DNA of 64,000 bases. Origin: Magnetococcales bacterium. GTDB taxonomy: Bacteria; Pseudomonadota; Magnetococcia; Magnetococcales; UBA8363. Below are positions 158 through 5,111 of this stretch, piece by piece. The notes beneath the pieces are model-generated. The model worked only from the letters and a program-made list of their open reading frames with translations. It had not been told where the DNA came from and did not search any database. Location of the stretch: the NCBI GenBank assembly GCA_015228815.1, contig JADGCV010000022.1, forward strand, positions 1 to 64,000, written 5' to 3'. Positions within the stretch are counted from its first letter, which is position 1, and every line of letters starts with the position of its first letter. A program made the translations under genes and the position numbers.

Positions 158-961
158 ATGCACTTTTCCCTGGCGTTTTCTCCCTGTCCCAACGACACCT
201 TTCTGTTCGGCGCCATTGCCCTGGGTCTGGTCCAGTATCCGGAGACGGACTGGAAGGTCCATCTGTTGGATATTGAAACATTGAATCGATCCGCACTCGA
301 TGGGTCTTTCGATGTCACCAAACTTTCGGTACACGCCTGGATGTCGGCACGGCATCAATACACACTTTTGCATATCGGCGGCGCCTTTACCGACAGCGAA
401 GGACCGGTCGTGGTCGCCAACCGTCCATGCACCATACAAGACCTTGCCGGTCGGCGCCTGGTATTTCCGGGACGGTATACCACCGCCTATCTGTTGTACC
501 GCATGCTGGTCCCAGGCGAGGGAGACCATCATTTCCTCCCCTACGACCGGATCGCCCCGGCAATCGCCTCGGGAGCATTCGATGCCGGGGTCATCATTCA
601 TGAAACCCGGTTTACCTTCGCCGACCACGGCCTCGAACACGTTCTGGACCTGGGTCGGTGGTGGCGGCAAGAAACCGGTCTGCCCCTTCCTTTGGGGTGT
701 TGCGCCATCCGTTCCTCGTTGCATGCCGAATGGGGACATGCGGTGGAAACCCTCATGAAACAAAGCCTTTCCCTGGCCCGTCATGGAAGTTCCGACCTTG
801 AGGACTACATGCGCCGGCATGCCTGTGAAATGGCCCCCGAGGTATTGGATCGTCATGTGCGACTTTTTGTCAACCGGTATACCGAGGATTTTGGCGACAG
901 GGGTTGGATGGCGCTTTGTGAATTGGAGTCTCGGGCACATCGCGCGGGGTTGCTTTCATGA
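158..961 (+). CDS. mqnD: 1,4-dihydroxy-6-naphthoate synthase MqnD
   Basis: This enzyme converts cyclic dehypoxanthine futalosine to 1,4-dihydroxy-6-naphthoate in the futalosine route to menaquinone. The 267-residue protein has the periplasmic-binding-protein-like fold expected of the family, and its N-terminal SPCPNDTF motif is the family hallmark. The length is typical. The stop overlaps the start of mqnB in an ATGA arrangement, so the two are likely translationally coupled. Four other menaquinone genes lie within the next 4 kb, which supports the assignment. A dispersed repeat arm sits immediately upstream and I see no clear Shine-Dalgarno sequence. Confidence 0.95.
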   Translation: MHFSLAFSPCPNDTFLFGAIALGLVQYPETDWKVHLLDIETLNRSALDGSFDVTKLSVHAWMSARHQYTLLHIGGAFTDSEGPVVVANRPCTIQDLAGRRLVFPGRYTTAYLLYRMLVPGEGDHHFLPYDRIAPAIASGAFDAGVIIHETRFTFADHGLEHVLDLGRWWRQETGLPLPLGCCAIRSSLHAEWGHAVETLMKQSLSLARHGSSDLEDYMRRHACEMAPEVLDRHVRLFVNRYTEDFGDRGWMALCELESRAHRAGLLS

Positions 962-1641
962 ACCCCATGAACGTTGGCTGGATCTTTGCCGCCCGTTGGG
1001 AGGCTTCTCCTTTTCTGCGGCGAAAATCGGCCCTGAAAGTTGCCGACGCCCCATTTCCACTGTACCGCATGGAATCAGAAGAAGCCGTTTCCTGGGCCAT
1101 TGTGACCGGAATGGGACCCGAGGCTGCCCGTGCGGGAACCTGGGCGTTGATCGAGAAATGCGAACCCCAGGGAATCGTCAATGCAGGTTTGGCTGGAGGA
1201 TTGACGCCCGAGATGACGATCGGGTCGAAAATCAAGGTGACCCATGCCTCATTGATCGACACGGATCGACCCTTGTCACCTGTTTTCTGGTATGGTCGCG
1301 AGAATCCAGGGAAACCGGAGGCTTCCTTTGGTGCCGCCCGGAAGGAAAAAAGGTTGTTGACCGTCACGGAACCGGTGTTCGATACCCGTTTGCGAACAAC
1401 GCTTTCCCAGTGGGGCGACCTGGTGGACATGGAAGGGGCGGCGATTGTCGCGGTCTGTCATGAAGCGGAAATTCCCTGCACCCTGATCAAACTGATCAGC
1501 GACCTGGCGGACGATGGCGCCAGGAAAGGGTTGCAGGAAAACATGAAAACCCATTGTCGTCTTCTGGCCGATCTCCTGGAACCCTTGTCCCCCGACGAAC
1601 TGGAAATGAATCCATGGAAACCCATACATCCAACCGCCTGA
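958..1641 (+). CDS. mqnB: Futalosine hydrolase MqnB
   Basis: A 227-residue nucleoside phosphorylase/hydrolase family protein that would remove the base from futalosine or aminofutalosine. It carries the family's NAGLAGGL stretch and the C-terminal DMEGAAI motif, where the Glu contacts the ribose, followed by an Asp near the end (KLISDLADD) expected to act on the purine. The start overlaps the mqnD stop (ATGA) and the end overlaps mqnE by 28 bases, giving an mqnD-mqnB-mqnE unit. If the pathway here runs through 6-amino-6-deoxyfutalosine (mqnE present), this enzyme would act on that compound. Confidence 0.9.
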   Translation: MNPMNVGWIFAARWEASPFLRRKSALKVADAPFPLYRMESEEAVSWAIVTGMGPEAARAGTWALIEKCEPQGIVNAGLAGGLTPEMTIGSKIKVTHASLIDTDRPLSPVFWYGRENPGKPEASFGAARKEKRLLTVTEPVFDTRLRTTLSQWGDLVDMEGAAIVAVCHEAEIPCTLIKLISDLADDGARKGLQENMKTHCRLLADLLEPLSPDELEMNPWKPIHPTA

Positions 1642-2660
1642 ATCGGACCGAAGCATGGACCCTGATCGTCCAATCCCGGGAAGACCACTGGTCCACCGTG
1701 GGGACGCTGGCCCACGGGCAACGCCTTGATCGTCATGGGAAAACAACGACCTACGTCCATAATCTGCATGTCAATCCTTCCAATATCTGCCATGCCGGAT
1801 GCAAGGTGTGTCGGTTTGGCGTATCTCCCGGTTCCTCAAAGGGATATGTTCTTGGTTTACCGGAAATTCTTGACCGGGTAGCCGAGAGTGAACCGGATGA
1901 GGTTCATATTGTCGGTGGTTTGAACGACATGTGGAACCTTGCCCGTTCTCTGGAACTGGTCGGAGCTTTGCGACGGTGTCATCCGCGCATGACCATCAAG
2001 GGATTCACTGCGGTCGAGATCGACTGGTTCGCCCGGAACACGGAACTACCGGTAGCGGTGGTCCTGGAGCGGTTGCAAAAGGCAGGACTCGATGGTTTGC
2101 CGGGGGGCGGGGCGGAACTGTTTTCCGAGAACATACGTAAACAATTGTTCCCCAACAAAATATCATCGGAACGATGGCTCCAGATCCATGAGACGGCGCA
2201 TCGTTTGGGCCTGTTCAGCAACGCGACCATGCTTTGTGGGCTGGGGGAAGGGTGGATGGAGCGGATCGATCATTTATTGGCGTTACGTGATCTTCAGGAT
2301 CGGACGGGTGGATTCACGGCGTTCATTCCATTGACGAGACAGTTTTCCAATCCTGCCGATTCCCGGTCCTTATCTCCTTTGGAAAACCTGGCGATCATCG
2401 CCATGTCTCGTTTAATCTTGGACAATATTTCGCACATCAAGAGCTATTGGCCGATGATGGGGATTGAGACAGCGGCGGTGGGGTTGTCCTGGGGGGCGGA
2501 TGACATGGACGGGGTCATTGGCCAGGAACGCATTGCCCACGCGGCGGGGGCCGATACCCCGGCGGGCCTGACACCAAAAGCGTTGAGGGCGATCATTCGC
2601 GGAGCGGGGTTTGATCCCGTGCGAAGGGATGGTCGGTTTCAATTGTTGAAAAATTATTGA
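1614..2660 (+). CDS. mqnE: Aminofutalosine synthase MqnE (radical SAM)
   Basis: A 348-residue radical SAM enzyme joining the MqnA product to SAM-derived adenosine to give aminofutalosine. The cluster-binding CxxxCxxC is at residues 59-66 (CHAGCKVC). The following VHIVGGL, KGFTAVEI and GLPGGGAELF stretches are typical of MqnE rather than MqnC. I chose the ATG inside the mqnB end; an earlier start at 1554 would add 20 residues lacking family character. The last codons and stop lie inside the end of the repeat element beginning at 2652, so the C-terminus (LKNY) may have been set by insertion of that element. Confidence 0.92.
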   Translation: METHTSNRLNRTEAWTLIVQSREDHWSTVGTLAHGQRLDRHGKTTTYVHNLHVNPSNICHAGCKVCRFGVSPGSSKGYVLGLPEILDRVAESEPDEVHIVGGLNDMWNLARSLELVGALRRCHPRMTIKGFTAVEIDWFARNTELPVAVVLERLQKAGLDGLPGGGAELFSENIRKQLFPNKISSERWLQIHETAHRLGLFSNATMLCGLGEGWMERIDHLLALRDLQDRTGGFTAFIPLTRQFSNPADSRSLSPLENLAIIAMSRLILDNISHIKSYWPMMGIETAAVGLSWGADDMDGVIGQERIAHAAGADTPAGLTPKALRAIIRGAGFDPVRRDGRFQLLKNY

Positions 2661-3052
2661 AAAAAAAAAGGGGTCTGGGGGATTGCCCCCAGGGTTTTGT
2701 TTTTGACTTTGTTTTTCCACGCGCCATTTCACCCGAAGCGAATTTCCGCGGTTTTTGCGGAAATTCGCGCAGGCGCGCGCCCTTGTCCTGGTCTTTTCGC
2801 GGTTTTTGCGAAAAGACCAGGACACATTGCAAGTTTCCAGGCTGCACAACCAGCAGTGCGTTTGCCCTTCTTCGCAAAAACCGCGAAGAAGGGCAAACCA
2901 AGGCGCGCGCCTACGCAAGATTCCCGCAAAAACCACGCGGGAATCTTGCTTCGGGTGAAATGGCGCGTAAAAAACAAAATCAAAAACAAAATCAAAAACA
3001 AAATCAAAACCCTGGGGGCAATCCCCCAGACCCCTTTTTTCTTTCAATAATT
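2652..3052. repeat. Large composite palindromic element between mqnE and mqnA
   Basis: The left arm (2652-2739) and right arm (2948-3052) are imperfect reverse complements. Reading inwards, each has AATTATTGAAA, a purine run, GGGGTCTGGGGG, a G5-ATTG-C5 hairpin, T-rich 12-mer tandem repeats, CGCGCCATTT and CACCCGAAGC. About 210 bases between the arms hold four stem-loops, listed separately. Open reading frames exist across the element on both strands but are low-complexity by-products of the repeats. This looks like a non-coding mobile or structured element (MITE/REP-like); no transposase is nearby. Confidence 0.85.
2738..2949. repeat. Array of four stem-loops with constant loop and variable stems
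   Basis: Four perfect or near-perfect hairpins. Stem 2738-2749/2757-2768 (12 bp) has loop GGTTTTT. Stem 2785-2800/2808-2823 (16 bp) has loop GGTTTTT. Stem 2861-2875/2883-2897 (15 bp) has loop AAAAACC. Stem 2915-2927/2937-2949 (13 bp) has loop AAAAACCAC. All stems close with CGC/GCG at the loop but otherwise differ in sequence. The first two and last two loops are reverse complements, so the array is itself palindromic around an unstructured centre (2824-2860). GGCGCGCGCC blocks flank each half (about 2772-2781 and 2901-2911). Confidence 0.85.
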
Positions 3053-3079
3053 AAACCCGGGGGTACCTGGGGAGTTACT

Positions 3080-3171
3080 CAAAATCAAAAACAAAGTCAA
3101 AAACAAAGTCAAAACCCTGGGGGCAATCCCCCAGACCCCTTTTTTCTTTCAATAATTAAACCCGGGGGGGT
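3080..3171. repeat. Extra direct copy of the element's right arm
   Basis: Tandem AAAATC/AAAGTC-type 12-mers, the CCCTGGGGGCAATCCCCCAG hairpin, a T-rich stretch with TCAATAATT, and AAACCCGGGG repeat the block at 2990-3065 in the same direction. A third fragment (TTTTTTCAATAATTTTTTCC) follows at about 3187-3208, just before mqnA. It may also serve as a strong terminator-like structure between mqnE and mqnA. Confidence 0.75.
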
Positions 3172-3220
3172 GCCTGGGCAGTTACCCTTTTTTCAATAAT
3201 TTTTTCCCTGGAACACCATC

Positions 3221-4014
3221 ATGCGTCTCGAACCCGCCATCGGAATCGTCCCCTATCTGAACATGCGTCCCTTTGTCCTGATCCCCCCCCCCCCCCCGGA
3301 TGCCACCAGGTATTGCGGACACCGCAACAAATGATCCAGGAATTGTCACATGGTAAACTGATCGCGGGAGCGATTCCCGTTGGCGGATTACATCTTGTTC
3401 CTCAAGATAAATTTGAATTATTAAACTTTGGCCTGGCCGCTCGTGGCCCGGTACGGAGCGTCGCCCTCTTCTCCAGAATCGCCTTTGACGCATTTTCATC
3501 ACAATCCACCGTTCGTATCACCACGGAATCGGTCTCTTCCGTCCGCCTCCTGTCACTCCTCTGGAAAATGCGAACACATCATCCCGGAATCCCCACCCTC
3601 GCCACCCCGGAAGATACCCCCGATGGCGAACTCCTCATCGGAAACGCCGCCCTCATCCGCCAACGACACGGAAACGATCAATTCATTACCGATCTGTCAC
3701 AGCGCTGGTTCATCAATACCCAACTTCCATTCGTCTTCGCCCGCTGGGTCATGGCATCTACCATCAATCCACAACAGAAAAATGACATCCACTCCTGGCT
3801 GTCGGAAATCGACGCCCGACGCGAAGAACTGCTGCAACAAACCGCATACGAACCCAATAACCTCATGCCCCCACAGGAAATCCTCTCCTACCTGAAGCAC
3901 ATCTCCTGGAAACTCGGTCCGGAAGAGGAAGCAGGTCAACATCACTTTCTCAACACATGGAAACAATTGGGCAACGAACCCGTATTCCAGGAAAGAAGCT
4001 ACAAAAATATATAA
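3221..4014 (+). CDS. mqnA: Chorismate dehydratase MqnA, frame broken at a 15-C tract
   Basis: MqnA makes 3-enolpyruvylbenzoate from chorismate, the first step of the futalosine route. From the ATG at 3221 the reading begins IGIVPYLNMRPF, a typical MqnA N-terminus, then enters 15 Cs (3283-3297) and stops soon after. The rest of the enzyme is open in another frame from about 3298 to 4014, including GAIPVGG and the C-terminal helices. C16 or C13 would join both parts into one protein of about 264 residues with a short proline run. Either the sequence has a homopolymer error or the gene is phase-variable. Without the shift only a TTG start at 3313 would give a shortened protein. Confidence 0.85.
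3283..3297 (+). repeat. Homopolymeric C15 tract inside mqnA
   Basis: Fifteen consecutive Cs lie about 20 codons into mqnA and coincide exactly with the change of reading frame. Tracts of this length are prone both to slipped-strand mispairing in cells and to length errors in sequencing. Confidence 0.95.
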
Positions 4015-4022
4015 GGAACAAT

Positions 4023-5111
4023 ATGTTATCAAAAGAAAACACCACCCCACCGGAGAAACCGGTTGTTCCAGAGATCCATTCCCGAGAACGGCTCAACCGG
4101 ACCCAGGCCCTGGAATTCTTGACCCGATCCCCCCTTGGCGAACTCATGCGCCAGGGATTGGCAATGCGAAAACACCTCCATCCCGGCAATGAAGTCACCT
4201 GGGTATTCGATACCAATCCCAACCATACCAATATCTGTCACACCCGGTGTTCCTTCTGCGCCTTCTGGCGTGATGAAAAGGACGGTTATCGCCTGACCAC
4301 GGAAGAACTCATACAAAGATTGACCCCAGCTGTTTCCCAAGGGGCGACCACAGTACTGATTCAAGGGGGGCATGATCCCGCCCTGACCCTGGACGACTGG
4401 GTCGCCCTCATTCGGGCCATCGTTTATGCCTTCCCCCAGATCCATCTGCATCCGTTCAGCCCTCCCGAAATTCTGTTCATGGCCCAACAGGAGGAAACAA
4501 CCGTCGAACATGTCCTGAAAACACTGTGGGATGAAGGCATTCGCACCATCCCCGGCGGCGGTGCGGAAATTCTTGCGGATTCCGTTCGACAACGAATCTC
4601 TCCCGCCAAATGCCGTGCCGATGAATGGCTCGACCTCATGGAATCGGCCCACGGAATGGGATTCAAGACGACCGCGACCATGATGTACGGTCACATCGAA
4701 ACCGCCGAAGACATCGTGGATCACCTGTTGTCCCTCCGTTCCCTTCAAGAACGAACAGGCGGATTTTCATCATTCATCCCCTGGTCGTTCAAACCAGGCA
4801 CAACCCCCCTGGGACGGCAGATCCGGCAACCAGCCCCGGCCATCGATTATCCACGCCTGATTGCGCTGGCGCGGCTGGTGCTGGATAACATTCCCCACAT
4901 TCAAAGTTCATGGTTCAGCGAAAACATGCGTGCCGGGCAACTGGGCCTTCTGGCGGGGGCCGACGATTATGGCGGGTTGTTGTTCGAGGAAAACGTTCTT
5001 GACCAGGCAGGGCACGCCCCGAAAAACGATAAAAACCGAATTCTCGACAGCATCCGGGCCATGGGATTCCAACCGGTCCAACGGGATGGTTTCTACCGAC
5101 CGATCAACTGA
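4023..5111 (+). CDS. mqnC: Cyclic dehypoxanthinyl futalosine synthase MqnC (radical SAM)
   Basis: A 362-residue radical SAM enzyme that cyclises dehypoxanthine futalosine. The iron-sulfur motif CxxxCxxC is at residues 72-79 (CHTRCSFC), preceded by NPNHTNIC. Downstream LIQGGHDPAL, HLHPFSPPEI and TIPGGGAEIL are the blocks that separate MqnC from MqnE. I chose ATG 4023 because AAGGAA lies just upstream; starting at 3957 would overlap mqnA. It follows mqnA by 8 bases and ends 22 bases before the convergent tgt. Confidence 0.94.
   Translation: MLSKENTTPPEKPVVPEIHSRERLNRTQALEFLTRSPLGELMRQGLAMRKHLHPGNEVTWVFDTNPNHTNICHTRCSFCAFWRDEKDGYRLTTEELIQRLTPAVSQGATTVLIQGGHDPALTLDDWVALIRAIVYAFPQIHLHPFSPPEILFMAQQEETTVEHVLKTLWDEGIRTIPGGGAEILADSVRQRISPAKCRADEWLDLMESAHGMGFKTTATMMYGHIETAEDIVDHLLSLRSLQERTGGFSSFIPWSFKPGTTPLGRQIRQPAPAIDYPRLIALARLVLDNIPHIQSSWFSENMRAGQLGLLAGADDYGGLLFEENVLDQAGHAPKNDKNRILDSIRAMGFQPVQRDGFYRPIN

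Follow-up and report, generated by a model that had tools for sequence, protein, structure and literature searches.

What is the array of hairpins, with constant loops and variable stems, that lies between an mqnE-like and an mqnA-like gene of a Magnetococcales bacterium? The window analysed here comprised the first 64,000 nucleotides of contig JADGCV010000022.1 (assembly GCA_015228815.1). The initial annotation had described four hairpins at positions 2738–2949 with stems of 12–16 bp, a GGTTTTT loop that is reversed in the second half, and closing CGC/GCG pairs. All four hairpins were present (2738–2768, 2784–2824, 2860–2898, and 2915–2949), although their stems were 12, 17, 16, and 13 bp long, respectively. 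The loops were, in order, GGTTTTT, GGTTTTT, AAAAACC, and AAAAACCAC; three were thus as described and the fourth had 9 rather than 7 nt. A CGC/GCG pair closed each of the four hairpins beside its loop. Moreover, the array was real but only its middle had been noted. A nested palindrome at 2719–2968 enclosed the four hairpins and was flanked by two-way terminators. Its 19-bp outer stem (2719–2737/2950–2968) surrounded the outer hairpins, and an 11-bp GC-rich stem (2771–2781/2902–2912) surrounded the inner hairpins together with a fifth, weaker hairpin at the center (2825–2859). The features identified, and the evidence for each, were as follows.

2674–2693, no strand assigned: left two-way terminator hairpin, CTGGGGG-ATTG-CCCCCAG, with T tracts on either side (sites on both strands)
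2694–2718, no strand assigned: low-complexity T-rich tract (TTTTGTTTTTGACTTTG...) between terminator and core (sequence)
2719–2737, plus strand: core outer stem, left arm ACGCGCCATTTCACCCGAA (sequence, DNA fold)
2738–2768, plus strand: outer left hairpin, class A stem GCGAATTTCCGC, loop GGTTTTT (sequence)
2771–2781, plus strand: inner stem, left arm AGGCGCGCGCC (sequence, fold)
2784–2824, plus strand: inner left hairpin, class D stem (T)GTCCTGGTCTTTTCGC, loop GGTTTTT (sequence, covariation)
2825–2859, plus strand: weaker central hairpin, CATTGCA...AGCAGTG (covaries in relatives, helix 3)
2860–2898, plus strand: inner right hairpin, class E stem GTTTGCCCTTCTTCGC, loop AAAAACC (sequence, covariation)
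2902–2912, plus strand: inner stem, right arm GGCGCGCGCCT (sequence, fold)
2915–2949, plus strand: outer right hairpin, class C stem GCAAGATTCCCGC, loop AAAAACCAC (sequence)
2950–2968, plus strand: core outer stem, right arm TTCGGGTGAAATGGCGCGT (sequence, fold)
2969–3010, no strand assigned: A-rich tract, mirror of the left T-rich tract (sequence)
3011–3030, no strand assigned: right two-way terminator hairpin (terminator scoring)
3063–3078, minus strand: right IS66-type end GTAACTCCCCAGGTAC, one mismatch to GTAACTGCCCAGGTAC (sequence)
3080–3185, no strand assigned: tandem duplicate (offset 105 bp, repeat family D1) of the A-rich tract, terminator, and right end (sequence)
3170–3185, minus strand: second right end GTAACTGCCCAGGCAC inside the tandem duplicate (sequence)

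The single-stranded DNA fold of 2715–2970 had an energy of −114.9 kcal/mol, vs. −48.1 ± 3.9 kcal/mol for 200 shuffles (z = −17.4). In addition, GCGGTTTTTGC occurred three times in the window, all within the array, vs. 0.10 occurrences expected.

The array was not unique to this locus. Genome counts were derived from searches together with the retrieved stretches. In the 4.2-Mb genome, CGCGGTTTTTGCG was found 36 times and its reversed control was not found at all, and the core motif of the outer-stem left arm matched 75 places with at most two mismatches. A BLAST search with the 256-bp core returned 89 matches over both strands, many of which were cut at contig ends, while a covariance model of the inner core gave 45 matches across the two strands and therefore roughly two dozen places with an inner core, besides which there were many truncated copies. 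No match to the element was found among the plasmid and phage records searched. An exact 16-mer search over named genomes returned at least 119 scattered single matches in unrelated phyla, which were read as chance and not used. The stem sequences do change in a compensated manner, but free drift, as the initial annotation had it, was not what was observed: within one genome, the stem positions were mostly filled from a few discrete variants, which were A (GCGAATTTCCGC), B (GCGGTTTCTCGC), and C (GCAAGATTCCCGC) for the outer hairpins and D (...TCTTTTCGC) and E (...CTTCTTCGC) for the inner hairpins.

Three families of the order (f1/g1, f5/g5, and f7/g7) contained the core according to the covariance model, with 18 of the 48 genomes searched being positive. 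In a phylum-wide sample, 14 of 200 genomes possessed the core and all 14 were within the order; in the sampled genomes outside the order it was found in none. Given the many copies at contig ends, which are expected where palindromes break an assembly, it could be argued that the array arose by chance or by misassembly of palindromes from short reads. The same layout in 18 separately assembled genomes of the order, with 8-bp duplications in two of them, and its confinement to the order among the genomes sampled make such an artefact hardly credible. The stems were kept as structure in relatives. Between the genus members with a full core, the core was 71–84% alike, and the best DNA match of one flanking gene was ~70%. 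The copies of family f7 (L089, L107, and L347) kept the layout with inner stems of 21–25 bp, different sequences, and other terminator hairpins, and GTAAC ends were absent from these three copies; the shared unit is therefore the bare terminator-core-terminator. The f7 cores of L089 and L347 (genome G039) were flanked by two to three successive palindromic terminator-like hairpins (CCAGGGGGATTATCCCCCTGG, CCAAGGGCGAAGCCCTTGG).

The suggestion that either selection or a generating mechanism keeps the stems paired was borne out by many copies with compensating changes. The alignment used comprised 29 cores, oriented alike and drawn from six genomes of the genus; that of the inner core comprised 23 sequences. 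RNAalifold predicted 63 pairs for the 29 cores, and 31 of these showed changes on both sides. In the inner-core alignment, 96.8% of cells were paired vs. 86.4% in shuffles (35–57% in slid controls), the cells with both sides changed numbered 134 vs. 46.8, and the covariation score was 0.335 vs. 0.138, with none of 500 shuffles as high; the shuffles leave relatedness in and the cells counted are not independent events, and the covariation is therefore strong but not a probability. The loops and the CGC/GCG closures were conserved while the stems changed. Divergence was highest in the inner left hairpin, at 0.274 differences per site, and yet only 2.6% of its cells were non-Watson-Crick, the lowest share of all. 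The respective values were 0.177 and 6.5% for the inner right hairpin and 0.126 and 5.1% for the long-range core stem, and the long-range inner arm, with 0.096 differences per site, was the most mispaired (9.8%). Paired indels were also found, namely two extra base pairs in the D stems of G003 and one in L256. Finally, mismatched hybrids were seen directly in sequence: in L038, L264, and L266, unlike arms were joined at the shared loop. This pattern of covariation and mispairs fits arm-to-arm recopying in the short hairpins plus recombination in the loops.

The very stable fold would also suit a transcribed structured RNA or an mRNA 3′ stabilizer. Transcripts of bacterial MITEs often fold as stem-loops (PMC10969869). 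For the 14 copies whose neighbors were readable, crude gene calls placed about 7 between convergent and 6 between tandem genes, and 1 within a divergent pair, a placement that is also consistent with a function at mRNA 3′ ends. However, the core is flanked by two-way terminators, and no promoter-like site was found in window positions 2600–3260. A search of Rfam gave only sub-threshold matches, all below the gathering scores of their families, and both strands fold alike. Moreover, helix 2 showed ~80 changes on both sides vs. one one-sided G-U change. The ratio of G-T to A-C mispairs in the inner hairpins was 19:16, about equal, as expected for DNA; counting against a DNA-level reading, G-T exceeded A-C mispairs in the inner right hairpin alone (16:10) and in the inner arm (13:3). 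With terminators on both sides, no promoter-like site, and no clear G-T excess in the inner hairpins, the small-RNA role implied by the initial annotation is not supported, and we regard an RNA function as improbable. The results point to pairing that is kept at the DNA level by template switching rather than by selection on RNA. Template switching that creates and repairs stems has been described for RNA genes (PMC8794818).

The left and right sides of the core were compared as well. The inner left and right stems were never of one class in the 29 copies, and their arm identities did not exceed 0.75 (mean 0.64); arms of the same side had an identity of 0.88 when different copies within a genome were compared. 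In this genome, the outer left and right stems differed in 14 of 14 copies, where 4.2 of the same class were expected (permutation p = 0.005). A rule that the outer hairpins always differ was rejected, as both were of the same class in G005 L260 and L261. Kissing loops between the left and right inner hairpins were also rejected, as loop complementarity was not kept in G002, G003, and G004. Bacteria tolerate very long palindromes poorly. Identical sides would form one very long palindrome, which is a likely reason why the sides are unlike.

The unlike inner sides are also what would be seen if the branched fold itself were required, that is, if the core were a functional DNA structure, such as a putative protein-bound cruciform or hairpin or a site of recombination or replication, whose pairing is kept by selection and whose mobility is secondary. 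The same architecture in three families despite different stem sequences, the constant loops and closures beside variable stems, and the similarity of the core within the genus relative to that of the flanking gene are all in line with such selection. Conservation of the architecture across families is beyond what would be expected of passive MITE filler, and therefore selection may also act. However, the long-range inner arm pairs worse for its divergence than the short hairpins, while selection on the whole fold predicts otherwise. The same-class outer hairpins in G005 and the lost complementarity between left and right loops also argue against it. Thus, template switching is the best fit to the data; selection on the DNA fold, unlikely as it is as the primary explanation, is a serious rival.

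The initial annotation knew of no repeat type with this layout. Many copies, however, possessed IS66-type ends and several were flanked by 8-bp target duplications, and the layout therefore resembles those of known bacterial MITEs. The sequence GTAACTGCCCAGGTACC was found ~100 bp outside the core in many copies, and in 27 of 70 core halves it was present within one mismatch. A strict GTAAC..CA end of any kind was found in 28 of 51 half-flanks of the genome. The other 23 lacked a strict end within 330 bp; several of these had decayed ends and some had none. For instance, L032 and L037 were without ends on either side. GTAAC-type ends were also lacking in almost every copy observed in families f5 and f7. 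Two core elements with GTAAC...GTTAC ends had perfect 8-bp target duplications, one of 435 bp at C1:238333-238767 (ACAATATA) and one of 415 bp at C80:1033-1447 (AAAAATAT). A third such element, on C12, was 395 bp long with an 8/8 duplication (GCTGAGGC) and a partly deleted core, and a 450-bp core-bearing element of family f7 (L352) also had an 8/8 duplication (CGCACTTT). For the other candidate end pairs, hybrids included, the flanking 8-bp repeats did not match. With lengths of 395–450 bp, these elements are too short for a transposase gene. At L352 (1341–1830), this 450-bp element with its 8-bp duplication was inserted in the loop of another copy's outer hairpin. In addition, a 227-bp element at L333 (G000:C17, 210–436) had GTAAC-type ends (GTAACCGTTCAGACCCCC) and an 8-bp duplication (CCTCAATC) and lacked the hairpin core; it represents another IS66-type MITE family.

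Transposases of the IS66 family were present in all 8 genomes of the genus. In G005 (L323), the C-terminus of an IS66 transposase, cut by the contig start, was followed by the end GTAACTGCCCAGGTACCCCC, as in the element, and an IS66 found in G001 (L319) was complete, with GTAACTATTCAGCACC at its ends and a flanking repeat that matched at 7/8 positions. Similar ends, GTGACTACTCAGCA/GTAACTGCTCAGCA, and an 8-bp repeat were reported for ISDge4, an IS66 element of the ISBst12 group caught transposing in Deinococcus (PMC12898284). Inverted ends beginning with GTAA and an IS66-family element that matches them were both found; in the window copy, only the right-hand ends are present. Within G000, the assembly that contains the window and whose 96 contigs may miss repeats, no IS66 transposase with matching ends was found; it possesses only an IS66 gene fragment with other ends (GTAAGCGCC), and the partner with matching ends is in G005. 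The matching ends suggest that copies with intact ends were moved in trans, probably by an IS66-type (ISBst12-like) transposase. The IS66 ends can account for how some of the copies moved, but not for the spread of those without ends.

The window copy itself is best explained as an old insertion, now with its right end but without its left end, between the mqnE-like and mqnA-like genes. On the left, element sequence (AATTATTGA) extends into the last part of the mqnE-like frame, whose stop codon is at 2658–2660; on the right, two ends are retained because 105 bp were duplicated. Empty-site comparisons were made for two copies: the C80 copy gave weak matches to one side only, the genus being too diverged, and at the window locus the mqnE-like neighbor was absent from most relatives. 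A protein search for it in the 7 other genomes of the genus found one distant relative (37% identity, 1 of 7). The final codons and stop of the mqnE-like gene (2640–2660) appear element-derived (AAAAATTATTGA), and the insertion may therefore have rewritten its C-terminus. The probable mqnA frame starts with an ATG at 3221, is broken by a frameshift in a stretch of 15 C (3283–3297), and resumes in another frame at ~3313; this reflects either variation in the length of the C tract or an error in sequencing. The element lies among futalosine-pathway (mqn-like) genes at 158–5111. In a survey, genes of this pathway were found in very few Magnetococcia (PMC11707229).

Taken together, the array is read, with a probability of roughly 60%, as the core of a non-autonomous MITE-like element that combines IS66-type movement in trans, upkeep of stems by template switching, and recombination in loops. 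A full copy of ~395–450 bp would consist of an IS66-type inverted end (GTAAC...), a two-way terminator, a T-rich tract, the nested palindrome, and the mirror image of these parts. In the predicted fold of its single strand, the palindrome branches into an outer pair and an inner pair of hairpins and a weak hairpin at the center. Template switching during replication would recopy one arm from the other; both arms would thus change together, which would keep the short hairpins paired. Copies may also recombine, with crossovers in CGCGGTTTTTGCG, the loop that they share, which would reshuffle the stem variants and occasionally yield mismatched hybrids. A broader and more tentative view is that of an order-wide element class in which the branched fold is a conserved functional unit, with stems rewritten yet paired, inner sides unlike, and transposon ends optional.

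Similar to the MITEs moved in trans by IS elements, such as QMITE1/2, Chunjie, and MITEPsy1 (PMC10969869), the element is small, multi-copy, mostly intergenic, and without a transposase gene, and it shares with them IS-like inverted ends, target duplications, many truncated copies, and stable folds. Different from known MITEs, its interior is a nested five-hairpin palindrome of which the architecture, not the sequence, is kept across three families, it has two-way terminators on both sides, and many copies lack mobile ends. Similar to the IS66 elements of the ISBst12 group (ISDge4; PMC12898284), it has GTAACTGCTCAG-type ends, an 8-bp direct repeat, and single-gene IS66 relatives in the genus. 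Unlike the element, members of that group encode a transposase. To our knowledge, no such hairpin core has been described for the group. Like REP, BIME, and REPIN sequences, the copies are dispersed extragenic hairpins that are often near gene 3′ ends, but the element is much larger, nested, and, as far as its ends show, mobilized by a different class of enzyme. Moreover, instead of the conserved GTAG foot of those sequences, the outer-hairpin linker was GTAG or GCAG depending on the copy. The repetitive hairpin-forming elements of sponge mitochondria (PMC2800124) are likewise dispersed hairpins of few types; their stems are conserved and their loops variable, whereas here the loops are conserved and the stems vary with compensation. 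The compensated multi-base stem changes proposed to arise in one event by template switching (PMC8794818) are also similar, although that case concerned RNA genes and the present one a non-coding mobile DNA element.

Our verdict is that the array is a new structured variant of bacterial MITEs, known in kind and new in structure. With it, the bacterial MITEs gain a structured, IS66-linked member; the review of this class names none and makes no mention of IS66 (PMC10969869). About thirty related copies, with short- and long-range stems in the same molecule, provide a natural experiment on hairpin pairing and permit template-switch repair to be compared with selection on structure. Covariation, which is usually taken to prove that an RNA is functional, may in this case stem from a DNA copying process.
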